NCBI RefSeq assembly: GCF_014279595.1
Contig: NZ_CP047943.1
Coordinates: forward strand, 806,001 to 870,000
Direction of reading: 5' to 3'
DNA: 64,000 bases
DNA from: Synechococcus sp. RS9909
GTDB lineage: Bacteria; Cyanobacteriota; Cyanobacteriia; PCC-6307; Cyanobiaceae
Shown piece by piece: positions 33,164 to 55,832 of the stretch. Position 1 is the stretch's first letter, and every line of letters begins with the position of its first letter. The notes under the pieces were generated by a model that ran no database searches, was not told the origin of the DNA, and was given only the letters and a program-made list of their open reading frames with translations. A program made the position numbers and the translations under genes.

Positions 33164-33841
33164 TCAGTCAGTCGCGCTGAATGGTTCGGCTTCCGCGACC
33201 TGAACACCGAGGTCGCTGCGCCATTGCGACAAGGGTTTCTCCCAGCCCTCTTCCCATTTCTGGGCCACCAGAGGGGCTGCCTGCAGGCCGATTCTGTTGC
33301 CGTGGGCGATCGCCCGGCTGATCAGCTCCAGCTCCTGAGGCTGCAAGCGGAAGGAGCGGAACCCGGCGAGCAGGTTGAGCAGCACGAAGGCGGGAAAGCC
33401 GATCTGGGTGGCCGTGATCGCCAGCACGCCGGATTCACCGGCTGGTTCGGTGCTGAAGCCCGCCACCACATGGTGCAGGTCATGGGTGGTGGCAATCCGT
33501 TGGGTGAGCCACAGCGCTTCGGTGCTCGTGTCGCGCGGGCGGAAGAAGTCGGCGTCGTAGTTGAGCCGGCGGATCATGCCGGCGTAGGCATGGCCGAGGC
33601 TGCCCTGCGGCAACCGCTCCAACGCCTCCACATCCGGCTGAAAGGGGGGATAGCGCTGCTCGAGCATTTCGGCACCACCGGGAAGGCGGCGGAAGCGTTC
33701 GACGCACAAGGCCATCGCTTCACTGTCGAGGAAGTTGTCGACCAGATCGGCGATGCTGTCGAGCCCACCACCTGTTTTGGCCAGGTCGCGCAGGATGGTG
33801 AGGTTGCGCACCGAGCGCAGCAATTCTCGGGCTTGGCTCAT
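33164..33841 (-). CDS. Coq4-like protein
   Basis: A 225-residue protein of the Coq4 family. The family metal-binding signature HDxxH(x)nE is present as TTHDLHHVVAGFSTEPAGE. Coq4 in mitochondria supports ubiquinone synthesis; cyanobacteria make plastoquinone, so the role here is unknown. The N-terminal helix SQARELLRSVRNLTILRDLA and the C-terminal helices fit the fold. Its ATG overlaps the TGA of the upstream histidine kinase in ATGA (33838-33841), so the two are translationally coupled. Confidence 0.85.
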   Translation of the reverse strand: MSQARELLRSVRNLTILRDLAKTGGGLDSIADLVDNFLDSEAMALCVERFRRLPGGAEMLEQRYPPFQPDVEALERLPQGSLGHAYAGMIRRLNYDADFFRPRDTSTEALWLTQRIATTHDLHHVVAGFSTEPAGESGVLAITATQIGFPAFVLLNLLAGFRSFRLQPQELELISRAIAHGNRIGLQAAPLVAQKWEEGWEKPLSQWRSDLGVQVAEAEPFSATD

Positions 33842-35715
33842 GACGCTCCAGTGGCGGTGGGAAAGTGCAGCTGCACCTCAGCCCCACCCAGTTGGGTGGA
33901 GCGGCCGATGCGAATCGTGCCGCCGTGATTCTGAAGGCTCAGTTGCACCACAAACAAACCGATGCCATAACCGTCATCTTTGAGGCTGATCAGGGGTTGC
34001 AGCGGTTCGAGGCCAGCGGGGAATCCCGGCCCGTTGTCGGCCACCACCAGGGAGATCCCATCCGGCTGCTGCCGCACCGTCAGGAGCAGCCGGGGCGCGG
34101 CGGTGTGATGCAGGCGCAGCGCATCGAGGCTGTTGCGGAGCAGGTTGCAGATGGCGAGTTGCAGCTGCACGGAATCGCCCAGGATCGGCACCGCCGTGTC
34201 CGGTTGCTCCAGGCAGAACTGCACCTCCTGCTCCCGCACCCTCGCCTGCAGTTGCAGAACGCAGCTGTCCACCACCTGCCGCAGGTCGAGGGGCACCTTC
34301 TCGGTGTGCACGTTGCGCAGCAGCAGCCCGATCCGCTCGGCGATCAGCGACAGGCGCTGGGATTCTGCGTCGATCACCGTCAGGCGTTCGCGCAGATCCT
34401 CAGGGGTGGCGGTCTCTTGACCCAGACCCTCCAGGGCCAGCTTGCTGTTGAGCAGGATCGTGCTCAGCGGCTGGCGGATCTCATGGCCGATCGCAGAGGC
34501 GGTGAGGCTGATGCGCAACTTTTCGTCCATGTCGCTCAGCTGCCGCCGCTGAGCCTGGCGATAGGCGGTCACATCCACGAAGGTGAACACGAGCCGATCG
34601 TCGAGTTCCACGCTGTTGATCAACATCTCCAACTGCTGGCCGGATTTGCTGGTGATCCGGTAGTCGTCGTTCTGGGCGATGGCGCCTTCGCCATCAGCAT
34701 GGATGGCCAGGGCCTTCTGCCAGCGTTGCATCACCTCCTGGCGGTAGTCGGGATCGGGGTAGGCGAGGGGAAACCAGCGCGACAGGCTGGGGATGTCGGC
34801 CAGGGTGTAGCCGAGCTGGTGTTGGAAGGTGCTGTTGAGGAAGGTGATCGCAGGATCCTCCTGTCGCAGATCCAGAAAGGCGATGCTGATCGGGATGTTG
34901 TCGAGGATGCGTTCGAGGTCGCGGCGCTGTTCTTCAAACTGTTGCTGGGCCAGCACCTGCTCGGTGACGTCGATCAACACCCCTTCCCACACCACACTGC
35001 CGTCGGGCAGGTCGCGTGGCACCGATTCCGCGGTGATCCAGCGCACGTCCCCATTCACCAGCAGGCGGGTTTGCCCAAAAAACGGTGTGCGGTTGGTGAA
35101 GGCTTCTGCATTCCATTGCACCCAGGTGTCGAAGTCGTCGGGATGCACACAGGCGAATCCCTTGAGCGGGTCCTCGAGCGCCTCTTCCCGCTTGATACCG
35201 GTGAGTTCGAGGAATCGGTCCGACATGAATTCGAAGCTGGCCAGTGCAGCGCCGGGTCGCAGCACCATCGTGTAGGTGCCCACGGGGATCGCTTCGGTGA
35301 TGCGCAGGGCGGTGAGAGCCAGATCGGGATCGGGTGGGCCGTGGGGTGGGGTGGGGATTGGCGGCTCAGCGCTGACGTCGCTGAGGTTGAGCAGCCAGCC
35401 ATTGGTGCCATGGGGCTGGGCTTCCACATGCAGCGCTCTGCTGCAGGGGGCGGAGCGAGGCTCCAGCGCCACCTGCCAGCAGATCGGTGCCGATGCCGCA
35501 TCGCTGGCGTCGCCTCCGAGCAGCCCGCGCTCCTGGCCTGGGGCGAGCACGATTTGCAGCCGCTGTTGTAGTTCTGCGGCTGAGGCTGCGTCGCTCAACC
35601 CGAGCAAGGTCTGGGCTCGCGCGGTGAGCGCCTCACAGCGGAAGGATCCTGCCTCGCTGGCATCCGCCACAACATGCATGGCAGCGAAGGGCCAGGACTC
35701 GGGCCAAGGGGCCAT
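33838..35715 (-). CDS. PAS-domain sensor histidine kinase
   Basis: A 625-residue kinase without obvious transmembrane segments, so probably cytoplasmic. Two PAS domains lie at about 140-255 (FEFMSDRFLELTGIKREEAL, then WEGVLIDVTEQ) and 270-395 (FLNSTFQHQLGYTLADIPSL, then FTFVDVTAYRQ). The phospho-acceptor box is IGHEIRQPLSTILLNSK, an HPK4-like HE(I/L)xQPL type. The ATP-binding domain (about 490-625) has an N box (LAICNLLRNSLDALR) and a G1 box (VVADNGPGFPAG). No response regulator is adjacent. It is coupled to the Coq4-like gene by a 4-bp overlap, and the two may share a signal, which is inference. Domain positions are estimates. Confidence 0.92.
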   Translation of the reverse strand: MAPWPESWPFAAMHVVADASEAGSFRCEALTARAQTLLGLSDAASAAELQQRLQIVLAPGQERGLLGGDASDAASAPICWQVALEPRSAPCSRALHVEAQPHGTNGWLLNLSDVSAEPPIPTPPHGPPDPDLALTALRITEAIPVGTYTMVLRPGAALASFEFMSDRFLELTGIKREEALEDPLKGFACVHPDDFDTWVQWNAEAFTNRTPFFGQTRLLVNGDVRWITAESVPRDLPDGSVVWEGVLIDVTEQVLAQQQFEEQRRDLERILDNIPISIAFLDLRQEDPAITFLNSTFQHQLGYTLADIPSLSRWFPLAYPDPDYRQEVMQRWQKALAIHADGEGAIAQNDDYRITSKSGQQLEMLINSVELDDRLVFTFVDVTAYRQAQRRQLSDMDEKLRISLTASAIGHEIRQPLSTILLNSKLALEGLGQETATPEDLRERLTVIDAESQRLSLIAERIGLLLRNVHTEKVPLDLRQVVDSCVLQLQARVREQEVQFCLEQPDTAVPILGDSVQLQLAICNLLRNSLDALRLHHTAAPRLLLTVRQQPDGISLVVADNGPGFPAGLEPLQPLISLKDDGYGIGLFVVQLSLQNHGGTIRIGRSTQLGGAEVQLHFPTATGAS

Positions 35716-35831
35716 CAGGAGCCAGCATCACGTCGCAATGCTAATTCATCACTTCTAAGGACACGCCAATGCGACGTCATCGGCCTCCTGTCCGGGTGAA
35801 AAAGTCATGGCAAAATGAAGCTGCAGATGCA

Positions 35832-36266
35832 ATGTTTCTGGTGCAGCAGTGGGAGTATCAAGTGGTGCGCTTGAACATCGAGCCGCCGGTCTCGGCGCCG
35901 CAAGAGCCGCCTCCAGCACAGAATGCTCCCGACAGCGAGACCAAGCCTTCTGGAAAGGTGTTCAGTGAGGCCTACCTCAAAGAGGAATTTCCGCGCTTTT
36001 ACGTGCCTGAGGTTGGTGCTGCCTCAGCAGGGCCGATGCCTCAGCAGCAGGATCCCGCCTTCCAATTACAAGATTTTCTTAACGGTCAGGGGCAGCAGGG
36101 GTGGGAGCTGGTGGGTTTCCAGCATGCTCCTCCCCATGTCTTCATCGTGTTCAAGCGGCCTGCCGCCGGTCAGGAGAGCGCCCAAGCTGCCCAGAGCGAG
36201 CAGCTGAGGCTCACTCTGGATTTAGCGAATCGGGCCCTTGCGATCATTGACAAGCAGTCGTCTTAA
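35832..36266 (+). CDS. DUF4177-like protein
   Basis: A 144-residue soluble protein. FLVQQWEYQVVRLN at the start and LNGQGQQGWELVGFQ with VFIVFKRP later match the DUF4177 pattern (WEYKVV ... LN..G..GWEL ... KRP), here split by a Pro-rich insert of about 60 residues (QEPPPAQNAPDSETKPSGK). The C-terminal tail is helical. The in-frame ATG at 35769 would add 21 residues; 35832 is preferred because the domain begins there. The 3' end overlaps the Tic22-like gene by 4 bp, convergent. The function is unknown. Confidence 0.7.
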   Translation: MFLVQQWEYQVVRLNIEPPVSAPQEPPPAQNAPDSETKPSGKVFSEAYLKEEFPRFYVPEVGAASAGPMPQQQDPAFQLQDFLNGQGQQGWELVGFQHAPPHVFIVFKRPAAGQESAQAAQSEQLRLTLDLANRALAIIDKQSS

Positions 36267-37033
36267 TTGCCCTTTTGTTGATCAAGTTTCTGAATCAACG
36301 ACACCATGCGGCCGCTGGGAACCACGCGGAGTTGCCCCACTTTGTCTGCTGGTTCTTTGCGTAGGTAGGCGATGAAAGCATTCAGGGGAATCGCGATCAC
36401 ACGCGGCTGGTTCTTGGCTAATTGAGGTGATTCCTTCGTGGCCCGTTTCACGATGCCTTCCACGAAGTCCACTTCAGTGGCGCAGGGCACAAACTGTTTG
36501 CCCTTCGCCGGTCCCTCATTCATGGTTACCAGCAGGCCTGGTTCCGGGCAAAACACCATGGGTTGCAGATTGGCGATCTCCTTCGCCTTCGCTGCGGGAA
36601 CATTCTGTGCAACCAGCAGTTGCTCTGCAGCGGCCACTTGGCTGGGATCAGGAGCGATCACTCCCAGCTGTTCGGGGTTTTGTTGCAGGAGTGGAGCTAA
36701 AATCTGATTGAAACGTGCCAGGCTCACGGGGGTGAAACGCAAACTGCCGGCGACGTTTTTGCTGAGGCCATAGCGTTCGCCGGCATTGATCTGTTCTGCG
36801 GCCTGGATGGAGATCGCGGCGAGATAGGCCTGAACGGAGCGGCCGTCAATGGTGGCGGGGATGGCTTTTGGTTTTCCCTGATCATCCACGGCCATCAAGA
36901 GCAGAATTGTGTCGAGCTTGGCGCTCACCTCTGCTTCGGGCAGAGCTCGAACGGCGCTGCCGGAAGCGGCTGTGCCCCAGAGCAGGAGGCCACCCAGCAG
37001 GGCGAAGGCGCGATGCAGGTGTTTCGTGGTCAT
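36263..37033 (-). CDS. Tic22-like periplasmic protein
   Basis: A 256-residue exported protein. Residues 1-31 are a signal peptide ending SAVRA-LP. The body has the Tic22 layout of two similar halves: KLDTILLLMAVDDQGKPKAI, then LRFTPVSLARF, and later LLVTMNEG, KQFVPCATEVDFVEGIV, with the end VGQLRVVPSGRMVSLIQ resembling the conserved VRLVPSR...LQ ending. Cyanobacterial Tic22 acts in the periplasm and has been linked to outer-membrane biogenesis. Two cysteines (MVFCPEPG and FVPCATE) could form a disulfide. It starts 48 bp downstream of the giant adhesin stop on the same strand, so it may be cotranscribed with it. Confidence 0.68.
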   Translation of the reverse strand: MTTKHLHRAFALLGGLLLWGTAASGSAVRALPEAEVSAKLDTILLLMAVDDQGKPKAIPATIDGRSVQAYLAAISIQAAEQINAGERYGLSKNVAGSLRFTPVSLARFNQILAPLLQQNPEQLGVIAPDPSQVAAAEQLLVAQNVPAAKAKEIANLQPMVFCPEPGLLVTMNEGPAKGKQFVPCATEVDFVEGIVKRATKESPQLAKNQPRVIAIPLNAFIAYLRKEPADKVGQLRVVPSGRMVSLIQKLDQQKGN

Positions 37034-37081
37034 TGGGTCAGGTGCGAGAGGTGTAGGGAGTGCTGGTTTTGAGCGATCTGA

Positions 37082-40000
37082 TTAAAGCGATCGCATCAAC
37101 CAGCGTGAAATGCGACTCAATAATTGCGATTTAGGCTTGGTGTCATCGCCGTTTGACCGAGACAGCGCGTCATCGTCCGTTGGGGATGAGATGGTACCGG
37201 TGGGCGAGATCTGCTCTTGAGATGTGTTGGTTGTGACTGAAGAGCCGCATCCAGATCCGCTGACACAAACCTCATTCCCAGGCTGGATTTCAAAGGATGC
37301 AGTACCCATGTTGTAGCGCTCTGGTTGCTGGTTTTCCACGCGGAAGTTTGGCTTGAGCGGCCCTTCCTGCACGACGCTACCTGTGCCGCGCGCTGCCGTT
37401 GCTTCACCGGTCGTCTCGCTTGAGGAGTCCTGTCTGTCGAGCGATGGATTGCCAGTTGCGCTTGTGCGCTCGCTACCTGACGTGGTAGTGATGGTTTGCG
37501 GAGCGGTTGCGATAGAGGGGCTTGGATTCGACATGGACAGGGGATAGGGAGTTGCTGCTCCAGTGGTTGCTGCTGCAAGCGGCTGGCTATTCGTGAGGCT
37601 GCTGATGGGATTCAGCACTGTGGTTGTTGTGGTTGAGGTCTGCACCCGAACCACACTCGGATCGGTGTTGGTGAGCAACGAGGGCAGCGCAGTGGATGTG
37701 CTGCTGGCGATCACTTCGCGGACGGATGGAGCTTGAGGAGTGGGTTGGGTCGTTGTGGGGACCACGCCTGGCAGCACTGGGGGTTCAGGCCGGGGCTCGC
37801 TGGTCGTGCTGGGTGGGACCGGAGGTGCCGGTGGAGTTGGCGCTGAGGGTTCGGGCCGGGGCTCGCTGGTCGTGGTGGGTGGGACTGTTGTTTGCTCAGG
37901 AGCTGTCGGCGCCTGCGAGCCACCACTGCCACCACCCCCACTCGAAGGGGGCGCCGGAATCTGAAGACCAACTGCCAGTACGCGCACAACACGACCTTGG
38001 GCAGAGAGACTGCCGCTGAAATCATTGCCGGGGCCAGGCAGATTGATGTCGCCGAGGCCGGCATTCAGATCGGTGTCTCCATCAACCGTGATGTGACCGG
38101 TCTGAAGGATCGGGCCATTGCTGCTGGTGATGGAAGCGTTGCCTTGGATCGAGGTGATCCCCAGTGAGACCTGGCCCAGCGTGATGGCCTCCAGATCACC
38201 GGTGAGATCAAGGATGCCGGAGATGAGGACGTCGTTGGCGGTGTTGATGGTGAGGTCGCCACCGACACTTGGGGTGGAGGGTCCATCGGTGAGTGTGATG
38301 TCACCGGAGACGGCGATGTTGCCAGCAGCACCGCTGTCGAAGACGAGCGATTCAGCGTTGGTGTTGGTGATGGCACCGCCGATGGTGATGTCGGAGCCAG
38401 CAGTGCCATCGGTGGAGAAGGTGATGACCTCATTGGCAGAACCATCAAGGGTGATGTCTGTGGCAATGGAGATGCCCTGATCGGCGGTGATGTCAGCGCC
38501 GATGGTGCTCGTGCCGGTGCCGTCTTGAATCAGCTCGCCAGCAATGGAGAGCACGGCGTTGTCGCCGGTGGTGAAGGTGCCGGTGTTGGTGACGAGCAGA
38601 TCAGCGCCAATGCTGTTTGGCTGACCATTGATGACGAGGTTGGTGCCGTTGAAGTCGAGATCACCGGTGAGGGTGATCGCGTCGGAGAAGGTGGTGGTGC
38701 CGGTGCCAGCTGACTGGGAGAAGGAAGCCGCGGTGACGCTGCCGGTGAAGGTGGCGTCGTTGGCATTGGTGATGGAGATGGAGCCAGTGCCGAGATCACC
38801 GATGTCACCGGAGACGGCGATGTTGCCGGTGTTGCCGCTGTCGAAGACGAGCGATTCACCGTCGGTGTTGGAGATGGCACCGCCGATGGTGATGTCGGAG
38901 TCTGGGTTGCCATCGGTGGAGAAGGTGATCACCTCGTCCTGGTCACCATCGAGTGTGATGTCCGTGGCGATGGTGATGCCCTGATCAGCGGTGATGTCAG
39001 CACCGATGGTGTTGGAGCCCGTGCCGTCCTGGATCAGCGCCCCGCTGATGGCGAGCACAGCGTTATTGCCCGTGGAGAAGACGCCGCTGTTGGTGACCAG
39101 CAGATCAGCGCCAATGGTGTTGGGGACACCATTGATGACGAGGTTGGTGCCGTTGAAGTCGAGATCACCACTGAGGCTGATCGCGTCGGAGAAGGTGGTG
39201 GTGCCGGTGCCATCGATCTGGGTGAAGGACGCAGCGGTGAGGGTGCCGTTGAAGGTGGCGTCATTGGCATCGGTGATGGTGACGGCGCCGGTGCCCAGAT
39301 CACCGATGTCACCGGAGACGGTGATGTCGCCATCATTGCCGCTGTCGAAGACGAGCGATTCCCCAGCGGTGTTGGTGATGTCACCGCCGATGGTGATGTC
39401 GGAGCCAGCAGCGCCATTGGTTGAGAAGGTGATGGCCTCGTTCTGATCACCGGTGAGCTTGAGGTCACCGGTGAAGGAGAGGGCGCCAGTGGTGGTGGTG
39501 ATGTCCTCGCCGATGACGTTGGTGCCGCCGCCGGATTGAGCGAAGGAGCCAGCGGTGAGATCAGCCGCATTGCCCGTGGTGAAGACGCCGGTGTTGGTGA
39601 CGGTCATGGCACCGCCGATGACGTTGCCACTGCCGCTGAGGGTCAGGTTGGTGCCGTTGAAGTCGAGATCACCACTGAGGCTGATGGCATCCGAGAAGGT
39701 GGTGGTACCGGAGCCATCGATCTGGGTGAAGGACGCAGCGGTGACGGAGCCGAAGAAGGTGGCGTCATTGGCATCGGTGATGGTGACGGCGCCGGTGCCC
39801 AGATCACCGATGTCACCGGTGACGGTGATGTCGCCATCATTGCCGCTGTCGAAGACGAGCGATTCCCCAGCGGTGTTGGTGATGTCACCGCCGATGGTGA
39901 TGTCGGAGCCAGCCGCGCCATTGGTTGAGAAGGTGATGGCCTCGTTCTGATCACCGGTGAGCTTGAGGTCACCGGTGAAGGAGAGGGCGCCAGTGGTGGT

Positions 40001-43000
40001 GGTGATGTCCTCGCCGATGACGTTGGTGCCGCCGCCGGATTGAGCGAAGGAGCCAGCGGTGAGATCAGCCGCATTGCCCGTGGTGAAGACGCCGGTGTTG
40101 GTGACGGTCATGGCACCGCCGATGACGTTGCCACTGCCGCTGAGGGTCAGGTTGGTGCCGTTGAAGTCGAGATCACCACTGAGGCTGATGGCATCCGAGA
40201 AGGTGGTGGTGCCGGAGCCATCGATCTGGGTGAAGGACGCAGCGGTGACGGAGCCGGAGAAGGTGGCGTCATTGGCATCGGTGATGGTGACGACGCCGGT
40301 GCCCAGATCACCGATGTCACCGGTGACGGTGATGTCGCCATCATTGCCGCTGTCGAAGACGAGCGATTCCCCAGCGGTGTTGGTGATGTCACCGCCGATG
40401 GTGATGTCGGAGCCAGCAGCGCCATTGGTTGAGAAGGTGATGGCCTCGTTCTGATCACCGGTGAGCTTGAGGTCACCGGTGAAGGAGAGGGCGCCAGTGG
40501 TGGTGGTGATGTCCTCGCCGATGACGTTGGTGCCGCCGCCGGATTGAGCGAAGGAGCCAGCGGTGAGATCAGCCGCATTGCCCGTGGTGAAGACGCCGGT
40601 GTTGGTGACGGTCATGGCACCGCCGATGACGTTGCCACTGCCGCTGAGGGTCAGGTTGGTGCCGTTGAAGTCGAGATCACCACTGAGGCTGATGGCATCC
40701 GAGAAGGTGGTGGTACCGGAGCCATCGATCTGGGTGAAGGACGCAGCGGTGACGGAGCCGAAGAAGGTGGCGTCATTGGCATCGGTGATGGTGACGGCGC
40801 CGGTGCCCAGATCACCGATGTCACCGGAGACGGTGATGTCGCCATCATTGCCGCTGTCGAAGACGAGCGATTCCCCAGCGGTGTTGGTGATGTCACCGCC
40901 GATGGTGATGTCGGAGCCAGCAGCGCCATTGGTTGAGAAGGTGATGGCCTCGTTCTGATCACCGGTGAGCTTGAGGTCACCGGTGAAGGAGAGGGCGCCA
41001 GTGGTGGTGGAGATGTCCTCACCGATGACGTTGGTGCCGCCGCCGGATTGAGCGAAGGAGCCAGCGGAGAGATCCGCGCCATTGCCTGTGGTGAAGACGC
41101 CGGTGTTGGTGACGGTCATGGCACCGCCGATGACGTTGCCACTGCCGCTGAGGGTCAGGTTGGTGCCGTTGAAGTCGAGATCACCACTGAGGCTGATGGC
41201 ATCCGAGAAGGTGGTGGTACCGGAGCCATCGATCTGGGTGAAGGACGCAGCGGTGACGGAGCCGAAGAAGGTGGCGTCATTGGCATCGGTGATGGTGACG
41301 GCGCCGGTGCCCAGATCACCGATGTCACCGGAGACGGTGATGTCGCCATCATTGCCGCTGTCGAAGACGAGCGATTCCCCAGCGGTGTTGGTGATGTCAC
41401 CGCCGATGGTGATGTCGGAGCCAGCAGCGCCATTGGTTGAGAAGGTGATGGCCTCGTTCTGATCACCGGTGAGCTTGAGGTCACCGGTGAAGGAGAGGGC
41501 GCCAGTGGTGGTGGAGATGTCCTCACCGATGACGTTGGTGCCGCCGCCGGATTGAGCGAAGGAGCCAGCGGAGAGATCCGCGCCATTGCCTGTGGTGAAG
41601 ACGCCGGTGTTGGTGACGGTCATGGCACCGCCGATGACGTTGCCACTGCCGCTGAGGGTCAGGTTGGTGCCGTTGAAGTCGAGATCACCACTGAGGCTGA
41701 TGGCATCCGAGAAGGTGGTGGTACCGGAGCCATCGATCTGGGTGAAGGACGCAGCGGTGACGGAGCCGAAGAAGGTGGCGTCATTGGCATCGGTGATGGT
41801 GACGACGCCGGTGCCCAGATCACCGATGTCACCGGTGACGGTGATGTCGCCATCATTGCCGCTGTCGAAGACGAGCGATTCACCGTCGGTGTTGGTGATG
41901 GCACCGCCGAACGTGATGGGGCCGTTTCCTGCGGAGGTGTTGATGGTGACGTCGGCTGTGAGGGTAGCGTTCTCGTTAAACACCGCGCCTGCGGAGCCAG
42001 TGGCGGTGATGTTGCCGCCGAGCTGAACCGTGCCAGGGGCATCGGTGAGCACGCTGGCCACCTGCAGGGTGCTCTGGAAGTCGGTGAGAGCGCCGGTGTT
42101 CACCGTGAGGGCGCCCAGTTCGCCGTTGCTGGCAGCCCCCACGGCGCCAACGAAGCTGACCGGACCGCCAGCGGTGATGGTGAGGCTGCTGGCCAGGCTC
42201 GCAGCGGAATCGAGGCTGCTGCCAAACGTCACGGCACCGTTCGCGTCGCTTGCGGTGATGGTGAGCGTGTTGGCGAGGCTGGCGTTCTCGTTGAACACCA
42301 CGCCGGCGGCGCCGGTGGCGGTGATGTTGCCGCCCAGCTGAACCGTGCCAGGGGCATCGGTGCTGATGCTGACGGCGTTCACCGTGCTCTGGATATCGGT
42401 GAGGCCGGCGGTGTTAAGGGTGATGGCGCCCAGAGTCGTGGTGGAGCCGATGGCGGCATCGAATGCCACGCTGCCGTTGCCGGCATCCACGGTGAGGTTG
42501 TTGGCTAGGCCTTGGGCACTGTTGACCGTTCCCTGGAAGGACACCGCACCACCAGCTGTGACAGCGCCGTTATTGGTGGTGTCAACCACGAGCTCGCCGT
42601 TCGTCACCACAGCGCCCGCGAAGGTGATGGCGCCACCCGCACTTCTGTAGGTGCTGTTTGTGGTGATGGTGCCGGCTGAGGTGTAGGTCTGGTCGCCGGT
42701 GGTGGTGACGTCAAACAGGTAGAGATTGGCCGCCGAGATGTTGAGGCTGGCCAGAGGCGTGATGGCGCCAATGGCTCCATTGAGGCCGATGTTCAAGTCG
42801 CCAGTGCCCGCGGTGAGCGTCACAGCTAGGCCACCATCGAGGGCACCCAGCAATTCGAGATCGCCGCCGGTGGCGCCGGTGTCGATGGTGATCGAGCCGC
42901 CGTTGAGCGACAGCACGTTCTTGAAGCTGATGTCAGCGCCTGCCCCTTGTGCTCCGGCGCCATCGCCCAGGCCACCGGCGGAGCGGATCACACTGTTGTT

Positions 43001-46000
43001 GAGAACGATTCCCTGGCCATTAGGGGTTTCCAGAGCGATCGTGCCTGCATCGCCCCCTGCGCTGCCGGTCCCATTGCCAGCGGCCCCACCGGATGTATTC
43101 AGGCTTGCCAAACTGATGCTGGTGCCGGATCCGCTGGTGGTGATGGTTATGGCACCGCCAGCGGCCGCTGCAGAGCCGGTGGTGATCAGGTTGCCGGCCA
43201 GGTCGACGTTGCCAACGGAATTGATGTTGATGGCACCGGATTGGGTGCCGTCGCTGGCTGCCGTCGTGCTGATGGTTTCGCCGCTGACCAGGGAGAGAGC
43301 AAGACCATTGGAATCACCAATGCCGGCGTTGATGGTGACCAGACCATTGTCGGTGCTGCCGTCGTTGCCACCAGTCGTCGCGATGGATGCATTGAGATCC
43401 ACCACCTTGCTGTTGATGGTGATGGCCCCTGTGGAAGCGGTGAGGTTGCCATCGAGTTGGAAGACGCCCGTGCCAGCGGTGGCCTGTGAGAAGGAAGCAG
43501 CGGAGAAGGTGTCACCGAGGGTGACATTGTTGGCGGCGTTCATGGTGACAGCGCCGAGGGTGCCGCCGGTTGCGCCACCGACGATGCCGTCGAAGTCGAT
43601 GTCACCGCTGCCAGCGGTGAGGGTGAGGTCGCGAGCGGTGCCGTCGCTGTTGAGGGTGCTGCCAAAGGTGATGGCACCACCACCACTGGTGAGGGTGGTG
43701 TTGGCAGCGAGGGTGACAGCCGCGGTGTAGGTCTGAGCGCCGGTGGTGTTGATGGAGCCACCGTTGAGGTTGGAGGTGCGGGAGACGGTCAGGCCGCCAA
43801 GGGCAAAGGTGTTGCCAACGGCACCACCGAAGACCGCATTGCCGGTGATGCCGAGGGTGCGGAAGGTCGACGCCGGAGTTGCACCACCGGTGTTGCTGCT
43901 ATCGAGGGTGCCGTTGAAGGATGTGGTGGCCGCGGAGATGGCGGTGTTTTGGTCAAGGCCCGTGTCACCGGTGAGGGTGATGGTGCTGCTGTCGGCGTCG
44001 TAGGTGGTGCCGGTGAGGGTGATGTTCGTGGCGGTGATGCTCTGAGCGCCGGTTGCGAAGACGTTGTTGAGCGCAGCGTTGTTGGCGCTGGTGACGGTGA
44101 GGCTGGCCAGTGCATTGGCATCGCCGGCAGCCGTACCAGTAATGCCGGAGAGGGTGACATCACCAGTACCGGCGGTGAGGGTCAGGCCCTGAGCGCCATT
44201 GATGGTGCTGGAGAAGGCGATGTCACCGGTGGTGGCACCGGTGTCAACGGTGGCGGCACCCGTGGTGAGGGCAACGGCGTTGGAGAAGGAGATGGTGGCG
44301 CCAGCGCCCTGGCTGCCCGTGCCATCGCCGAGGCCACCGGCAGCGGTGATGGTGCTGTTGTCGAGGGTGATGGTGCCGGCGGTGGTGAGGCCAATGGAGC
44401 CAGCAGCGCCGCCGTTGCCATTGCTGCTGGAGGCAGCGGCACCACCTGAGGTGGTGATGTCGGAGATGGAGAGGGTGGCGGTTGTGCCGGTGGTGTCGAT
44501 GGTGACGTTGCCGCCGGCTGCGCCTGCAGAACCAGTGGTGATGAGATCACCAATCAGGTTGATGTTGCCGTCGGAATTGATGTCGATGGCGCCGGATTGG
44601 GTGCCAGCAGTGGTTGCGGTGGTGGTGATGCTCTTGCCGGAGGCGAGATCGAGGCCGCCGCTGCCCGCATTGATGGTCACCAGACCATTGGCACCACCAG
44701 CAGTGGTGGTGATGGAGGCGTTGAGATCAACGGTGGCCGAGCTGATCGTGATCGCACCGGTGTCGGTGTTGAGATCACCGCCGAGGGTGAAGATGCCCGT
44801 GCCGGCCGTGCCGCTGGCTTGTGAGAAGGAAGCAGCCGAGAAGGCTTTGCTGAGGGTGACATCAGCGGCCTGGTTGATGGTGACCGCCCCCAGACGGTTG
44901 GTGCCGCCGACGACATCGGAGAAGTTGATGTCACCGGAGCCGGCCGTCAGCGCGAGGGTTTCGCTGCCAGCTGTGGTGGCATCAAGGATGGAGGAGAAGG
45001 TGATGGTTCCAGCGCCGCTGCCTGTGCTGAGGGCGACAGGTCCGGTGAGGGTGACCGCCCGCAGGAAGGAGATGTTGCTGTCTGTGGTGGAGATGTCCCC
45101 AGCGATGGAGCTGGAGCCGGCGCCGTTCTGAGTGAAGGCGCCAGTGGCGGTGATGTCAGCCGCAGTGGCGGTGGTTAACAGGCCGGCATTGGTGATTTCA
45201 ACCGTGCTGCCGCTGTTGAGGCTGTCGTTGAGGGTGAGGGCCTGACCGGTGAAATCAAAGGCACCGGAGAGGTTGAGGGCACCATCAAAGGTGGTGAGGC
45301 CTGCGGCAGCGCTCTGGGTGAAGGAGGCGGCATCGATGGCGCCCGAGAAGGAGGCCTGATCAGCGCCTGTGATGGTGATGGCACCGAGTGTGGAGCCGCT
45401 GGCGCCGATGGCAGCGGTGACGGAGATGTCACCGTCGCTGCCGGCGTTGAGGGTGAGGTCTTGGCCGCTGCCGGTGATGCCGGCAGGGATGGTGCTGGTG
45501 CCGATGGTGATGTCCTGGCCGGCGGCGCCACCGGTGGCCAGCACAACGGCATCCGTACCGGTGAGGGCAATGGCTTTGGCAAAGGAGATGCCGCCGGTGG
45601 CGGTGAGGTTGGCGCCGAGGCTGCTGGTGCCGTTGCCGGTTTGCTGGAAGGCAGCGGTGATGGAGAGATCAGCGTTGTCTGTGGTGGTGAAGGTGCCGGC
45701 GTTGGCGACGGTCATGGCGCCGCCGATGGTGTTGCCGGCGCCGTTGATGGTCAGCGCCTGACCGATGAAGTCAAAGGCACCGGAGAGGGTGAGCGCCCCA
45801 TCGAAGCGAGAGAGGGAGCCAGCGGCGGCAGCGCTTTGCGTGTAGGACGCCGCCTTGAAGGCGACATCAGCGGTGAGGTTGCCGGCGGAGTGGATGGTGA
45901 CGGCACCGAGAGCGCCGTTGAGAGCAGAGCCAACCGCGCCGTCGAAGTCAATGGCGGCGTTGCCAGCGGTGATAGCGAGGGTGTTGGCCTCGGTGGATTC

Positions 46001-49000
46001 ACTGTCGAGGGTGCCGGAGAAGGTGACCGCACCGCCGGTGGCACCACCAGCTGTGGTGTTAATCACCAGGGCGTCATTGATGACGGTGTCACCGGCGAAG
46101 GTGATGGCACCACCAGATGAGGTGTAGGTGCTGTTGGTGTTGATGCCAGTGGTGGCGGTGAAGGTTTGAGCGCCGGTGGTGGTGACGTTGCGGAGGGTGA
46201 GGTTGTTGCCGCTGATGGACAGAGAAGCGAGTTCTGAGCCGGCTGCAGCGGTGCCGACATCAGCGGCGGACTGGAAGACGACATCACCGGTGCCGGCTGT
46301 GAGTGTCAGAGCGCGTGCGGTGCTGTCGCTGTTGATGTCACCGGAGAAGGAGATGGTGCCGGTGCCGGAGCCAGTGGAGAGGGAGACGCCATTGGTGAGT
46401 GTGATGGCGTCGGAGAAGGCGATGTCGTCATCAGTGGTGGTGATGCCAGCGCCGAGGTTGATGGAGCCGCCACCGGATTGAGCGAAGGCGCCATCAAGGG
46501 AGAAGGCGGCGCTGTTGCCAATGGTGAGCAGGCCGGAGTTGTCGATGGCGACAGCGCCGCCGCCAGTGGTAGTGACACCACCTTTGAAGGTGAAGGCACT
46601 ACCGCTCAGATCAATGCCGTTGAGGTTGACCGGAGTACCAGACGGATCAATTTGAGCGTTGGTGTTGAGTGTGCCGCCAAAGGTGGTGGTGCCGCTGCCG
46701 GCTTGTTGCTTGATGGAAGCAGCGGAGAAGGCTTTGGTGTCAGCAACGGTGACGTTGGTGGCGCTGTTGATGGTGAGTGCCCCGAGGCGCGTGCTGCCGC
46801 CAACGGTGTCGGAGAAGGTGATGTCACCGGAGCCAGCGGTCAGCGTGAGGTCCTGAGCGCCGTTGAGGGTGCCGGAGAAGGTGATGTCACCGCCAGTGGA
46901 GCCAGTGGAGATGGATCGAGCAGCGTCTGTGAGGCTGACAGGGCTGTTGAAGGTGATGGAGCCGCCGTTGGCGGAGAGATCACCGCCGAGGTCGGTGGTG
47001 CCGGTGATGGCGATGGCCTGGCCGCTGCCGTCAGCGGTGAGGTCAGCGTTGAGATCAACAGCGTTGCTGTTGATGGTGATGGCCCCTGTGGAAGCGGTGA
47101 GGTTGCCGCCGAGTTGGAAGGTGCCACCTCCAGCTGTTGCCTGGGAGAAGGAAGCAGCGGAGAAGGTGTTGCTGAGGGTGACGTTGTTGGCGGCGTTGAT
47201 GGTGACAGCGCCGAGAGCGCCGTTTTGTGCACCACCGATGATGCCGTCGAAGTCGATGTCACCGCTGCCAGCGGTGAGGGTGAGGTCGCGAGCGGTGCCG
47301 TCGCTGTTGAGCGTGCTGCCAAAGCTGATGGCACCACCACCACTGGTGAGGGTGGTGTTGGCAGCGAGGGTGACAGCCGCGGTGTAGGTCTGAGCGCCGG
47401 TGGTGTTGATGGAGCTGCCGTCGAGGGCAGAGGTGCCGGAGACGGTGAGGCCACCGAGCGCGTAGGAGCTGCCAACAGCACCATCAAACACCGCATTGCC
47501 GGTGATGCCGAGGGTGCGGAAGTTGGAGGCCGGCGTGGCTGCGCCGTCATTGCTGCTATCGAGGCTGCCATCGAAGGTGATGCTCGAGAGCGTGCCGCTG
47601 TTATCGGCGGTCAGGGTGGTGTTGCTGCCCAGCACCACAGCACCGGTGTAGAGCTGGGCGGTGGTGGTGGTGACGGCGTCAGTGCCGCCATCGATGTTGA
47701 TGGTGGCGGCGGAGGCATCAACGCTGGCGACGTTGACATCACCGCTGAGGGTGAGGGTGCCGGTGCCAGCGGTGAGGGTGAGGCCCTGAGCGCCATTGAT
47801 GGTGCTGGAGAAGGCGATGTCACCGCCTGTGGCACCGGTGTCAACGGTGGCGGCACCCGTGGTGAGGGCAACGGCGTTGGAGAAGGAGATGGCAGCGCCA
47901 GCACCTTGGGAGCCCGTGCCATTGCCGAGGCCACCGGCGGCAGTGATGGAGGAGTTGTTGAGGGTGATGGTGCCAGTGGTGGTGAGGCCAATGGAGCCAG
48001 CAGCGCCGCCGTTGCCATTGCTGCTGGAGGCAGCGGCACCACCTGAGGTGGTGATGTCGGAGATGGAGAGGGTGGCGGTTGTGCCGGTGGTGTCGATGGT
48101 GACGTTGCCGCCGGCTGCGCCTGCAGAACCAGTGGTGATGAGATCACCAATCAGGTTGATGTTGCCGTCGGAATTGATGTCGATGGCGCCGGATTGGGTG
48201 CCAGCAGTGGTTGCGGTGGTGGTGATGCTCTTGCCGGAGGCGAGATCGAGGCCGCCGCTGCCCGCATTGATGGTCACCAGACCATTGGCACCACCAGCAG
48301 TGGTGGTGATGGAGGCGTTGAGATCAACGGTGGCCGAGCTGATCGTGATCGCACCGGTGTCGGTGTTGAGATCACCGCCGAGGGTGAAGGTGCCCGTGCC
48401 GGCTGTGCCGCTGGCTTGTGAGAAGGAAGCAGCGGAGAAGGCTTTGCCACCAGCGATGGTGACGTCGTCAGCTTGGTTGATGGTGGCCGCCCCCAGGCGG
48501 TTGGTGCCGCCGGTGATCTCGGAGAAGGTGATGTCACCGGAGCCGGCGGTGAGGGTCAGCGTGCGTGCAGCGGTGGCATCGGAATCAAGGGTGTCCGAGA
48601 AGGTGATGGCGCCATTGGTGGCGGTGAGGGTGGTGGCTGCACCGAGGCTGACGGCATCACCAAAGACCATGCCGGCAGCGCCGGAGGTGGCAATCGAACC
48701 ACCGTTGATGGCGGTGCTGCCGCCGGCATCGGTGCTCAGGGAGACCAGCGCGGTGCTGTTGCCAACAGCGCCGGAGAAGGTGGTTGTTCCGGTGGTGTTG
48801 ACCGCCAGGGTGTAGCCGCCGTTGAGGGTGCTGTCAAAGGTGATGGCCCCACCACCGCTGGTGAGGGTGGTGTTGGCAGCGAGGGTGACAGCGCCGGTGT
48901 AGGTCTGCAGACCGGAGGTCTTGATGGAGCCACCGTTGAGGGCAGAGGTGCCGGTGACGGAGAGGCTGCCGAGCTCGTAGGCGTTGCCGACGGCGCCATC

Positions 49001-52000
49001 AAACACCGCATTGCCAGTGACGGCGAGGGTGCGGAAGTCGGAAACGGCAGGAGAGGCGCCGTTATTGCTGCTATCGAGCGTGCCCGCGAAGGAGGTGGTC
49101 GCCGCGGTGATGGCGGTGTTTTGCTCGAGGACGGCAGCACCGTTGAGGGTGATGGTGCTGTTTGCTGCGTCGTAGGTGGTGCCGGTGAGGGAGATGCCAG
49201 TGGCGGTGATGCTCTGAGCGCCGGTGGAGAAGACGTTGTTGAGAGCGGCGTTGGTCGCGCTGGCGACCGTCAGGCTGGCCAGACGGCCAGTGCTGCTGTT
49301 GCTGGTGCCGGCGATACCGGCGAGGGTGACGTTGCCTGAATTGGCGGTGAGGGTCAGAGCGCGAGGCGTGCCATCACTGTTGATGACATCGGAGAAGGAG
49401 ATGTTGCCGCCGCCAGCGCCGGTGTTGATGGCGACATCACCAGTGAGGGTGACAGGGCTGTTGAGGGAGACGTTGTCTGCGGTGGTGGTGATATCCCCAG
49501 CGGTATTGATGCCGCCTGTGACGGTGAGGGAGACAGTGCCATCGGCGTTGATGTCCCCAGCGGCGGCGATGGTGAGAGCTCCGCCGGTGGCATTGAGGGT
49601 GACAACACCGGAGGAGGTGGTGTCAATGGAATCGGCCAGGGAGATGGCGGCGTTGTTGATGACAACGCCGGCCGAACCGGTGGTGCCAAGGGCCTGATCG
49701 GTACCGCTGGAGAAGGTGCCGCCGTTCAGGGCGGTGGTACCAGTGCCGGTGGTCTGGGCAAGGCTGAGGGCACGGAGGCCGTTGACGGTGACGTCGTTGG
49801 CGGAGGCGATGGTGACGGCACCGAGGGGAGTGGTGTCACCGACGAGGCCTGAGAAGGTGATGTTGCCGCTGCCGGCGGTGATGGAGAGGTTATTGGCGGC
49901 GTTGGCCTTGGAATCAAGGGTGCCGGAGAAGGCGACGTTGCCGCCGGTAGCACCACCAGCGGTGGTGTTGATGGTGAGGGCGTCATTGATGACGGTGTCA
50001 CCGGTAAAGGAGATGGCGCCACCGGATGAGGTGTAGGTGCTGTTGGTGTTGATGCCACCGCTGGCAGTGAAGGTCTGATCGCCGCTGGTGGTGACATCAC
50101 GGAGTGTGAGCGCAGCACCGCTGATGGTGAGCGAAGCGAGCTCGGAGCCGGCGGTGGAGCTGGTGCCAACGGTGGCGCCGCTCTGGAAGACAACGTCACC
50201 GGCACCAGCGGTGAGGGTCAGAGCGCGAGCCGTGCCGTCGCTGTTGATGGTTTCGGAGAAGGCGATGTCGCCGGCGTCGGTGCCGCTGCCGGTGCTGAGG
50301 GAGAGGTCACCGGTGAGGGTGATGGCCTTGGAGAAGGAGATGCCTGCGGCGTCGGTGGTGATGTCACCGGCGATGGAGCTGGAGCCAGTGCCGTTTTGGG
50401 TGAAACCTGAGGTGGCGGTGATGTCAGCAGCAGCGGCGGTGGAGAAGGTGCCGGCGTTGGTGACGGTGACGGTGCTGCCGCTGTTGAGGGCGGCGTTGAG
50501 GGTGAGTGCCTCACCGGAGAAGGCAAAGGCACCGGTGAGATCGATCGCGCCACCAAAGGTGCTCAGACCCGTACCGGTGGTTTGTGTATAAGAGCCCGCG
50601 TTGAGGGCGCCGGTGGCGGTGAGGTTGCCAGCTGAAGCGATGGTGATCGCTCCAAGGCGACCAGCGTTGTTGCTGCCAGCGGTACCGACGTCACCCGAGA
50701 AGGTGATGTCACCGCTGCCGGCGGTGATGGTGAGCGCGCGGCCGCCATTGGCATCGCTATCCAGCGTGCTGCTGAAGATCAGATTGCCGCCGCCGGTGGT
50801 GATGGCGATGGGACCGCTGAGGGTGGTTGCAGAAGCAACCGTGACGTTGTCACCTGTGGTGGTGATGTCAGCAGCGGTGGTGATGCCGCCGTTAGCGGTG
50901 AGGGAGACGGCGCCATCGGCGTTGATGTCTGCGGCAGCGGCGATGGAGGCGGTGCCGGATTGGGCGATGGTGAGGGTGCCGCCGGTGGTGGTGGTGAGGG
51001 AGCCGTTGAGCACCAGGTTGGTGCCGGTCAGGGAAATACCGGCAGCGGTGTTGGTGTTGATGGCGCCGGAGAAGGTGGCGGTGCCGGATCCGGCCTGCTG
51101 GGTGAGGCTGGCGGCGGTAATGGCAGCGGCAGAGAGGTCGTTGGCGCTGGCGATGGTGAGCGCCCCGAGGCGGCCATTGACATCGCCGCCGACGGCCCCA
51201 GAGAGGGTGATGTCACCGGTACCAGCGGTGAGGGTGAGGTTTTGAGCGCCATTGATGGTGCTCAAGAAGCTGATATCACCGCCTGTGGCACCGGTGTCAA
51301 CGGTGGCGGCACCCGTGGTGAGGGCAACGGCGTTGGAGAAGGAGATGGCAGTGCCAGCACCTTGGGAGCCCGTGCCATCGCCGAGGCCACCGGCGGCAGT
51401 GATGGAGGAGTTGTTGAGGGTGATGGTGCCGGTGGTGGTGAGGCCAATGGAAATGGAGCCAGCAGCGCCGCCGTTGCCATTGCTGCTGGAGGCAGCGGCA
51501 CCACCTGATGTGGTGATGTCGGAGAGGGAGAGGGTGGCGGTTGTACCGGTGGTGGTGATGGTGACGTTGCCGCCGGCAGCACCAGCCGAACCGGTGGTGA
51601 TCAGGTTGCCGGCCAGGGCGACATTGCCGTCGGAATTGATGGTGATGGCGCCGGATTGCGTGCCAGCGGTTGCGGCAGTGGTGGTGATGGTGTTGCCGCT
51701 GGCCAGGGTGAGAGCCAGGCCATTGGCATCACCAACGCCGGCATTGATCGTCACCAGACCATTGGTGCTGCCAGCGGTGGTGGTGAGGTTGGCGTTGAGA
51801 GCAACCTCCTTGCTGTCGATGGTGATCGCCCCGGTGTCGGTGTTGAGATCACCGCCGAGGGTGAAGATGCCCGTGCCGGCCGTGCCGCTGGCTTGTGAGA
51901 AGGAAGCAGCCGAGAAGGCGTTGCTGAGGTTGACATCAGCGGCTTGATTGATGGTGACGCCGCCCAGGCGGGTGGTGCCGCCGACGACACCCGAGAAGGT

Positions 52001-55000
52001 GATGTCACCGGAGCCAGCGGTGAGGGTGAGGTCTTGAGCACCAGCGCTGGTGGCATCGAGGGTGTCCGAGAAGGTGATGTCACCAGCGCCGGAGTCTGTG
52101 CTGAGGGCGACAGGACCGGTGAGGGTGACCGCCCGCAGGAAGGAGATGTTGCTGTCTGTGGTGGTGATGTTGCCAGCGATGGAGCTGGAGCCAGCGCCGT
52201 TCTGAGTGAAGCCAGCGGTGGCGGTGATGTCAGCCGCAGCGGCGGTGGTCAGCAGGCCGGCATTGGTGATTTCAACGGAGCTGCCGCTGTTGAGGCTGTC
52301 GTTGAGGGTGAGGGCCTGACCGGTGAAATCAAAGGCGCCAGAGAGGTTGAGGGCACCATCAAAGGTGGTGAGGCCAGTGCTGGCGGCGGCGGCTTGCGTG
52401 TAAGAGGCCGCAGTGATCGCCCCCTGGAAGGCGACCTGATCGCCATTGCTGACGGTGATGGCACCGAGTGCGGAGCCGTTGGCACCGATGGCGCCGGTGA
52501 TGGTGATGTCACCGGCGCTGCCGGCATTGAGGGTGAGGGCCTGGCCAGTGCCGCTGATGCCCGTGCTGGTGGAGGAGCCCAGGGTGATGTCCTGTCCGCT
52601 GGCGCCACCGGTGGCGAGGACGACGGCATCGGAGCCGGTGAGGGCAATGGCCTTGGCAAAGGCGATGCCGCCAGTGGCGGTGAGGTTGGCGCCGAGGCTG
52701 CTGCTGCCGTTGCCGGTTTGCTGGAAGGCACCGGTAATAGAGAGATCAGCGGTATCAGCGGTGGTGAAGGTGCCGGCGTTGGCGACGGTCATGGCACCGC
52801 CGATGGTGTTGCCAGCGGCGTTGAGGGTGAGGGCCTGACCGGTGAAATCAAAGGCGCCAGTGAGGTTGAGCGCTCCATCGAAGGAGGAGGTGCCGGTTCC
52901 TGCGTTTTGTGAGAAGGACGCCGCGGTGATGGATTGATCAGCGGTGAGGTTGTTGGCGCTGTTGATGGTGACAGAGCCGAGAGCGCCATTGGTGGCGGAG
53001 CCGACAGCACCATCGAAGGTGATGTCACCGGTGCCGGCGGTGAGGGTGAGGGTATGGGCCTCGTTGGCCTTGGAATCAAGGCTGCTGTTGAAGGCGATGG
53101 TGCCGGCGCCAGCTCCGGTATCGAGGAGAACATTGCCGGTGAGTGTGACGGCCTTCTGGAAGGTGATGGTGTCGTCAGTGGTGGTGATGTCAGCGGCGAT
53201 GGAGCTTGAACCAGCGCCGTCTTGGAGGAAGGCGCCGGCGAGGTTCATGTCGCCGGTGGCGGTGAGGGTCAGAGCACCGCCGTTGGTGATCGTCACCAGG
53301 CCAGCGCTCTCGTCTGAGGTGGTGACGAGACCGTTGAAGCGAACGGTGCCGGTTGAATCGAGATCGAGGTTGCCGAGGGTCAGCGTGACGGTGTCATTGA
53401 AGTTGAAGTTGGTGCCATCGAGCTCGATGCCGTCGGCCGCGGTGGTGGAGAGAGCACCGGAGAAGGTGGAGGTGCCGGAGCCAGCGACCTGACGCAGCGA
53501 GGCGGCATTAAAGACGGCGTCAGCGGTGAGGTTGTTGGCGCTGTTGATGGTGACGGCGCCGAGAGCGCCATCGGTGGCGGAGCCGACAGCACCATCGAAG
53601 GTGATGTCACCGGTGCCGGCGGTGAGGGTGAGGGTATGGGCCTCGTTGGCCTTGGAATCAAGGCTGCTGTTGAAGGCGATGGTGCCGGCGCCAGCTCCGG
53701 TATCGAGGAGAACATTGCCGGTGAGTGTGACGGCCTTCTGGAAGGTGATGGTGTCGTCAGTGGTGGTGATGTCAGCGGCGATGGAGCTTGAACCAGCGCC
53801 GTCTTGGAGGAAGGCGCCGGCGAGGTTCATGTCGCCGGTGGCGGTGAGGGTCAGAGCACCGCCGTTGGTGATCGTCACCAGGCCAGCGCTCTCGTCTGAG
53901 GTGGTGACGAGACCGTTGAAGCGAACGGTGCCGGTTGAATCGAGATCGAGGTTGCCGAGGGTCAGCGTGACGGTGTCATTGAAGTTGAAGTTGGTGCCAT
54001 CGAGCTCGATGCCGTCGGCCGCGGTGGTGGAGAGAGCACCGGAGAAGGTGGAGGTGCCGGAGCCAGCGACCTGACGCAGCGAGGCGGCATTGAAGACGTC
54101 GTCAGCGGTGAGGTTGTTGGCGCTGTTGATGGTGACAGCGCCGAGAGCGCCATTGGTGGCGGAGCCGACAGTGCCATCGAAGTCGATGTTGCCGGAGCCA
54201 GCGGTGAGGGTGAGGGTGTTGGCGGCGTTGGCCTTGGAATCAAGGCTGCTGTTGAAGGCGATGGTGCCGGCGCCAGCTCCGGAGTCGAGGAGGACATTGC
54301 CGGTGAGAGTGACGGCCTTCTGGAAGGTGATGTTGTCGTCAGTGGTGGTGATGTCAGCGGCGATGGAGCTTGAACCAGCGCCGTCTTGGAGGAAGGCGCC
54401 GGCGAGGTTCATGTCGCCGGTGGCGGTGAGGGTCAGAGCACCGCCGTTGGTGATGGTGACGAGGCCGTTGTTGGCGTCTGAGGTGGTGACGAGACCGTTG
54501 AAGCGAACGGTGCCGGTTGAATCGAGATCGAGGTTGCCGAGGGTCAGCGTGACGGTGTCATTGAAGTTGAAGTTGGTGCCATCGAGCTCGATGCCGTCGG
54601 CCGCGGTGGTGGAGAGAGCACCGGAGAAGGTGGAGGTGCCGGAGCCAGCGACCTGACGCAGCGAGGCGGCGTAGAAGACGTTGTCAGCGGTGAGGTTGTT
54701 GGCGCTGTTGATGGTGACGGCGCCGAGAGCGCCATCGGTGGCGGAGCCGACAGCACCATCGAAGTCGATGTTGCCGGTGCCGGCGGTGAGGGTGAGGGTG
54801 TTGGCGGCGTTGGCCTTGGAATCAAGGCTGCTGTTGAAGGCGATGGTGCCGGCGCCAGATCCGGAGTCGAGGAGGACATTGCCGGTGAGAGTGACGGCCT
54901 TCTGGAAGGTGATGTTGTCGTCAGTGGTGGTGATGTCAGCACCGAGGCGGATGGAGCCGGCACCGGATTGATCAAAGGCGCCATCGAGGGAGAAGGAAGC

Positions 55001-55832
55001 GCCGCTGTTGATGGTGAGCAGGCCGGAGTTGTTGATGGCGACAGCGCCGCCGTTTGTGGTGGTGACGGTGTCTTTGAAGGTGAAGGCACTACCGGTTAGA
55101 TCAATGCCGTTGGCATTGCTACCACCGATTTGAGCGATGGTGTTGAGTGTGCCGCCAAAGGTGGTGGTGCCGCTGCCGGCTCGTTGCTCGATGGAGGCAG
55201 CGGAGAAGGCCTTGCCATCAGTGACGGTGACGTCAGTGGCAGAGGCGATGGTGAGTGCCCCGATGCGCGTGGTGCCGCCAACGGTGTTGGAGAAGGTGAT
55301 GTCACCGGAGCCAGCGGTGAGGGTGAGGTCTTGAGCACCAGCGGTGGAGGCATCGAGGGTGTCCTTGAACCAGATGTCACCAGCACCCGAGCCAGTGGTG
55401 ATGGTGCGAGCAGCGCCAGAGAGGGTGACGGGGCTGTGGAGGGTGATGGCACCGCCGGTAGAGGTGAGATCACCGCCGAGGTCGGTGGCACCGGTGATCG
55501 TGATGGCTTTGCCACTGCCGTCAGCGGTGATATCGGCGTTGAGATCAACAGCGTTGCTGTTGATGGTGATGGCCCCTGTGGAAGCGGTGAGGTTGCCATC
55601 GAGTTGGAAGGTGCCGCCTCCAGCGGTGGCCTGGGAGAAGGAGGCAGCGTCAAAGGTGCTGCTGAGGGTGACGTTGTTGGCGGCGTTGATGGTGACAGCG
55701 CCGAGGGTGCCGTTTTGTGCACCACCGACGATGCCGGAGAAGGTGATGTCACCGGCGTTTGAGGTGAGGTCGAGGGTGCGGTTGCCGTTGGCGTCGCTGT
55801 TGAGGGTGTCCTTGAACCAGATGGTTCCACCC
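37082..55832 (-). CDS. Giant repetitive adhesin, C-terminal part (after frameshift)
   Basis: About 6,250 in-frame codons of an FHA/HMW-like extracellular adhesin. It is almost entirely Gly/Ser/Thr/Asn/Asp-rich beta-strand repeats such as GSGDITFSDTVGGTTRLGA and AASFSQASGTAGTG, expected to fold as a very long beta-helix. Internal arrays of 504 bp and 582 bp and larger dispersed modules are annotated separately. Near the C terminus the repeats stop and a low-complexity Pro/Thr/Ser stalk begins (PPTTTSEPRPEPSAPTPPAP), containing a duplicated TTSEPRPEP. It is followed by NEVCVSGSGCGSS and a basic end ISRWLMRSL. No autotransporter barrel or LPXTG motif is present. The open frame upstream continues to 56104, but codons before 55832 are out of the native frame. 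A CCC run at 55830-55832 separates it from the N-terminal part. The role is presumably surface attachment, motility or defence. Confidence 0.85.
38333..41860. repeat. Tandem array, seven 504-bp periods in the adhesin
   Basis: The landmark GCTGTCGAAG recurs at 38333, 38837, 39341, 39845, 40349, 40853, 41357 and 41861, exactly 504 bp apart, so each unit is 168 codons and keeps frame. A second landmark with the same spacing (38583, 39087, 39591, 40095, 40599, 41103, 41607) confirms it. The five units around 39.6-41.9 kb are nearly identical by eye; the two at 38.3-39.3 kb are more diverged. The unit encodes a block with GGAMTVTNTGVFTTGN, GDLKLTGDQNEAITFS and FTQIDGSGTTTFSD. Confidence 0.95.
44160..44830. 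repeat. Dispersed adhesin module, copy 1
   Basis: Encodes a module with TTGAATVDTGATTGDIAFSS, SISDITTSGGAAASSSNGN and SGAIDINSDGNINLIGDL. Similar modules recur at about 47757-48430, 51213-51910 and 56216-56930. Plus-strand landmarks sit at 44199, 47796, 51252 and 56257, with spacings of 3,597, 3,456 and 5,005 bp. This copy shows the large-scale repeat rhythm of the gene. Confidence 0.8.
47757..48430. repeat. Dispersed adhesin module, copy 2
   Basis: Near-identical to the copy at 44160-44830 at a spacing of 3,597 bp. Much of the stretch reads the same base for base, including the parts encoding SISDITTSGGAAASS and INSDGNINLIGDLITTG. Confidence 0.8.
51213..51910. repeat. Dispersed adhesin module, copy 3
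   Basis: Homologous to copies 1 and 2 but more diverged. It carries a 6-bp insertion (ISIGL-type) after AAGS and replaces NLIGDL with ALAGNL. Confidence 0.75.
52951..54942. repeat. Tandem array, about 3.4 units of 582 bp in the adhesin
   Basis: The landmark TGTTGGCGCT recurs at 52951, 53533, 54115 and 54697, exactly 582 bp apart (194 codons). The last unit diverges at about 54942. Each unit encodes LTADNVFYAASLRQVAGSGT-like, TFSGALSTTAADGIELDG and LTATGDMNLAGAFLQDG blocks. A further copy with the same landmark at 57539 lies 2,842 bp beyond the fourth unit. Confidence 0.93.
55536..55808. repeat. 273-bp segment duplicated exactly at 61315-61587
   Basis: Read base for base, 55536-55808 and 61315-61587 (offset 5,779 bp) appear identical. 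They diverge just beyond 55808, where this copy switches to sequence matching about 55355-55376. The frameshift at 55830-55832 lies a few bases past this switch point. Confidence 0.85.

Follow-up and report, generated by a model that had tools for sequence, protein, structure and literature searches.

We analyzed a 64,000-nucleotide stretch of the Synechococcus sp. RS9909 genome, referred to here as the window, which contains the following features:

33838 to 35715, minus strand: PAS sensor histidine kinase, in a strain-variable block with its left limit at about 33874
35769 to 36266, plus strand: Sp36/DUF4177-like protein, convergent with the next gene, the two stop codons overlapping
36263 to 37033, minus strand: Tic22-like protein (Tic22L) of 256 aa, with an ATG start, a signal peptide recognized by eye, and cysteines C162 and C184
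37034 to 37081, minus strand: 48-bp gap from the adhesin stop to the Tic22L start, with no promoter-like match
37082 to 56104, minus strand: C-terminal open reading frame (ORF) of the exoprotein TpsA, 6,340 aa, with repeats, a Pro-rich tail, and a DUF5649 repeat match
55749 to 55850 (near 55830), minus strand: net frameshift, within the repeats, that separates the two TpsA ORFs
55749 to 64000 and on to genome C1 position 923053, minus strand: upstream part of TpsA, a 20,434-aa ORF with N-terminal PF05860

The first-pass annotation had placed a Tic22-like gene directly behind an adhesin gene, on the same strand and 48 bp away, and this arrangement was borne out, with the adhesin ORF ending at 37082 and the gap occupying 37034 to 37081. 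The span then quoted for the gene, 36263 to 37081, has the correct start but takes in the gap, as the gene itself ends at 37033. A search of the gap for a promoter-like site found none. In the direction of transcription, Tic22L is the terminal gene of a two-partner secretion (TPS) locus and is presumably co-transcribed with the giant exoprotein gene. The N terminus of its product, MTTKHLHRAFALLGGLLLWGTAASGSAVRA ahead of LPEAEV, reads by eye as a Sec signal peptide with a V-R-A site, and the protein is probably periplasmic.

The ORF that had been called an adhesin is the C-terminal part of an ~80-kb TPS gene of about 26,650 codons with one frameshift. The initial stretch of this ORF (about 56104 to 55830) does not share the reading frame of the protein, and the frameshift may be a real lesion or an assembly error or collapse in the repeats. 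The giant exoprotein has a TPS domain at its N terminus (PF05860, E 1.3e-25), and upstream of TpsA lie a gene for a 245-aa DUF6447 protein and then TpsB, which has a ShlB barrel (PF03865, E 3.4e-19) and a POTRA_2 domain (PF08479, E 1.3e-17). The TPS domain and such a TpsB at one locus make this a two-partner secretion (type Vb) system, and no autotransporter barrel was seen in the scanned C-terminal part of TpsA. The gene does sit behind the gene for an exoprotein of megadalton size, as had been proposed; from its codon count, TpsA would have a mass of over two megadaltons, which places it among the largest surface proteins predicted in bacteria. Giant ORFs of up to 84,534 bp, the largest reported in the Dufresne 2008 set, are described for marine Synechococcus, SwmB included, in the available text of PMC2441476.

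We found that the label Tic22-like fails by Pfam and holds by profile and by predicted fold. A Pfam scan of Tic22L returned no family at E ≤ 1, a search of its own genome with PF04278 (Tic22) was empty at E ≤ 10, and Pfam, NCBIfam, and single-sequence PDB searches with Tic22L gave nothing useful. Because no match exceeded the PF04278 cutoff, which the autotransporter-linked paralogue described below also misses (14.9 bits versus 23), we call the protein Tic22-like and not a member of the Pfam Tic22 family. Homology to a solved Tic22 was evident with profile A2, built from ten relatives of Tic22L without any ordinary Tic22: its only PDB sequence match was Anabaena Tic22 4ev1 (E 1.4e-4, full length, profile positions 35 to 254). 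A profile of ordinary Tic22s recovered the Tic22L gene at E 2.4e-11. The AlphaFold2 model of Tic22L (pLDDT 72, pTM 0.67; one of five models was good) has the Tic22 fold, since all four significant Foldseek matches in the PDB were to Tic22, and VIA gave Z values of 9.9 to 12.9 over 168 to 180 residues for Tic22 chains versus 4.6 for the best non-Tic22 chain.

C162 and C184 (numbering of the window protein) are present in all ten aligned members of the Tic22L group, in FCPxP-like and VPCA-like motifs, and presumably form a disulfide; cysteines are absent from the mature part of 28 ordinary Tic22s (25 from other cyanobacteria and 3 from this family). In the tree, ordinary and cysteine-type Tic22 split with support of 100/99 and the autotransporter-linked Tic22L genes form one clade, while the long branch of the sequence from G116, a genome of another genus, makes its placement uncertain. 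A search of 31 genomes of the genus with the ordinary-Tic22 profile found no ordinary Tic22. At the usual place of that gene, between ilvB and hemH (loci L156, L157, L158, and L159), it is missing in G000, G181, G034, and G116 and present in G047, an apparent loss in the lineage. We considered whether the window gene could be the ordinary Tic22 at its customary site and rejected this, as the ordinary gene is at ilvB-hemH in other genera and Tic22L belongs to a separate clade. None of eight ordinary-Tic22 loci that we examined had an ORF of over 1,000 aa nearby.

A second Tic22-type gene, the existence of which had been raised as a question by the first-pass annotation, was found elsewhere in the genome, and it also adjoins a gene for a giant exoprotein. 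This gene, the sole other Tic22 relative in the genome (C1, 281,674 to 282,414; 25 to 27% identity to Tic22L), is divergent from a second, unrelated giant gene with an open frame of ~9,150 aa, whose product is a classical (type Va) autotransporter with a C-terminal beta-domain (PF03797, E 2.1e-39). Among the 31 genomes of the genus, six have the autotransporter barrel, and its kind of Tic22L occurs in exactly these six, where it always adjoins a giant ORF; a 48-aa, 38% identical Tic22L fragment in G307 was disregarded in this count. This co-occurrence would be 1 in 736,281 arrangements if the genomes were independent, a formal probability that overstates independence because they are related.

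Genes for DUF6447 proteins were also seen at these loci. One lies between TpsB and TpsA here and also in G254, and another is convergent to the autotransporter-linked Tic22L in G000, G181, G169, and G156. The DUF6447 proteins are encoded at the following positions:

L048:15056-15790, minus strand: DUF6447 protein
L029:10397-10726, minus strand: DUF6447 protein

DUF6447 is possibly a second shared accessory gene of giant exoprotein loci. We rejected it as a specific marker, given a core copy in nearly every genome of the genus, and our counts of genomes with DUF6447 are lower bounds because the search missed the TPS-linked copy that hmmscan finds.

Outside the genus, the gene order of the window recurs in G116 (L028), where a Tic22L gene (29% identity) lies 42 bp behind a C-terminal adhesin ORF and is itself followed by a convergent Sp36-like gene. 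The Sp36-like neighbor, recognized by eye in G116 with no Pfam match, has counterparts in G082 and in G047, in the latter next to a Tic22L remnant. In genus g47, represented by MAGs, the relatives are 64 to 71% identical and no adhesin adjoins them; their neighbors are Sp36, minE, katG, or amylase-like genes (names by eye except Sp36). TpsB of the G000 type, the type of this locus, was not found in the fragmented g47 MAGs. That the same TPS is hidden elsewhere in these fragmented genomes was considered and rejected, as the TpsBs there belong to shorter-exoprotein systems ending NPF/YWAGIELLG. Across 400 genomes of the family, TpsB is eight times commoner than cysteine-type Tic22L (96 versus 12 genomes), which means that Tic22L is not a general requirement for TPS export. 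A close relative of this TpsB was otherwise found only in G254, an 82% complete genome in which Tic22L was not detected.

Two further arrangements were observed. In G047, the Tic22L remnant (about residues 29 to 65) lies beside Sp36 at L038:9990-10961 and an intact Tic22L elsewhere adjoins a katG-like gene, a sign of relocation. In G498, another cyanobacterium (L129:1510-2958), a single 482-aa frame encodes a Tic22 domain together with RTX-type Ca-binding repeats.

The sister strain lacks a block of ~89 kb, from window position 33874 to genome C1 position 929255, that is missing as a unit and contains a histidine kinase, the Sp36-like gene, Tic22L, TpsA, DUF6447, TpsB, a periplasmic binding protein, and a second kinase. 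In the sister strain, whose flanks are about 94% identical, the sequence corresponding to window position 33873 is followed by 209 bp and then by the DNA found near 929,255 here. A short remnant of the kinase end is left at this empty site, which suggests that the block was lost in the sister strain. A search of roughly 250 bases around the island ends found no direct repeats of at least 11 bases. We also observed two sensor histidine kinases and a periplasmic binding protein at the borders of the TPS block (window 33838 to 35715; L048:17638-20000), and these may regulate it.

These comparisons bear on the earlier idea of a conserved adhesin-Tic22 pair. The joint absence from the sister strain agrees with it; exclusivity does not hold, given the g47 relatives and the lack of Tic22L in most TPS systems of the family. 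Similarly, the expected proximity to giant adhesins elsewhere is seen in G116 and for the paralogue in this genome and not in g47. The first-pass annotation had named as contrary evidence a Tic22 gene staying put, with no second copy, in strains without the adhesin: the nearest strain loses both genes together, and a relative without the adhesin does exist in a distant genus, where it adjoins Sp36/minE and other genes and is not at the same chromosomal place.

With moderate confidence, we favor the reading that Tic22L, with its Tic22 fold, works in the periplasm as a holdase for giant type V exoproteins and represents a subfamily set apart by two cysteines. Support comes from the fold and the homology to Tic22, the location of the gene, its absence from the sister strain together with the TPS genes, the paralogue next to another giant gene, and the conserved cysteine pair; the g47 relatives that stand alone, the predominance of TpsB without Tic22L, and G254, with no detected Tic22L, count against it. 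The data partly support the earlier interpretation and broaden it to a link between two-cysteine Tic22 and two kinds of giant type V exoprotein, which is not an obligatory pairing, and suggest that small Tic22-type proteins help giant proteins to leave the cell. More tentatively, two-cysteine Tic22 could be a dedicated class of periplasmic chaperones for giant TPS and autotransporter exoproteins, possibly together with the DUF6447 protein. Mechanistically, Tic22L would be exported via Sec, act as a holdase by binding the still unfolded repeat chain, and pass the giant TPS protein to the POTRA domain of TpsB, while the paralogue would hand the giant autotransporter to the BAM/Omp85 machinery; we infer this mechanism, including holdase action, POTRA docking, and substrate specificity. 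TpsB is a member of the Omp85 superfamily with POTRA. Anabaena Tic22 is described as a holdase shuttling between the plasma membrane and Omp85 (Brouwer 2019, as cited in the available text of PMC9705863), and the POTRAs of chloroplast Toc75 bind Tic22 directly (PMC4811774). How TpsA stays secretion competent or unfolded in the periplasm is mostly unknown according to a review (PMC8151025), and no link of Tic22 to autotransporters or TPS was found in the literature searched.

Tic22L could instead be a general outer membrane protein holdase that replaced a lost ordinary Tic22, the giant exoprotein neighborhood being incidental, as the missing ordinary Tic22 in the genus, the empty ilvB-hemH place in the four genomes named above (filled in G047), and the solitary g47 relatives might indicate. 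We consider this unlikely: presence of Tic22L follows giant exoproteins, G047 keeps both the ordinary and the cysteine type, and neither type was detected in 25 of the 31 genomes at the sensitivity of these searches, so that the genus gets by without Tic22.

It seems to us similarly improbable that Tic22L is carried along with a giant-gene island and has no work there. Co-transfer, and not function, may explain why it is linked to the giant gene in a variable island: the region is a strain-variable block, the G+C content of Tic22L is 0.578 versus 0.64 in its surroundings, and the available text of PMC2441476 describes deviating composition and patchy distribution for giant ORFs of marine Synechococcus. 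Against passive carriage speak the two diverged Tic22L paralogues in one genome, whose giant type V neighbors are different and unrelated, and the recurrence of the arrangement in other genomes. We give little credence to a post-export periplasmic accessory, either a tether or a retention/release factor, in place of a holdase. TpsA, in whose scanned C-terminal part we saw no barrel, must be held or released, and TpgA of AtaA sets a precedent (PMC8151025), but the Pfam scan found no peptidoglycan-binding domain in Tic22L, and the literature ties the Tic22 fold to holdase and POTRA roles.

If Tic22L does serve giant exoproteins as a holdase, the chloroplast import factor Tic22 would be extended to protein secretion, and cyanobacteria would have an answer to the problem of a megadalton unfolded chain crossing the periplasm. 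This genome, from a genus otherwise seemingly without Tic22, has two Tic22L genes with different giant exoprotein neighbors and offers a clean genetic system, in which deletion of one Tic22L should affect one substrate.

Among known systems, cyanobacterial Tic22 (Anabaena alr0114, PDB 4ev1; PF04278) is like Tic22L in whole-length homology, predicted fold, signal peptide, and, presumably, periplasmic location. It lacks conserved cysteines and is found at a housekeeping place, whereas Tic22L has two, is below Pfam detection, forms a separate clade (100/99), and lies beside giant type V genes. The TpsA substrate belongs to the known class of giant ORFs of marine Synechococcus (PMC2441476), for which the available text of that paper yielded no Tic22-like partner gene; the giant genes are thus already known, and the Tic22 partner is new as far as the literature searched goes. 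SadB (for SadA) and TpgA (for AtaA) are, like Tic22L, encoded by accessory genes adjoining a type V adhesin (PMC8151025), but SadB is a lipoprotein, TpgA is peptidoglycan associated, both serve trimeric autotransporters, and a Tic22 link is unreported in PMC8151025. Par27, DegP, and SurA in TPS or autotransporter export share with Tic22L a proposed role in holding large exoproteins in the periplasm, but they are general factors that are not dedicated to one substrate.
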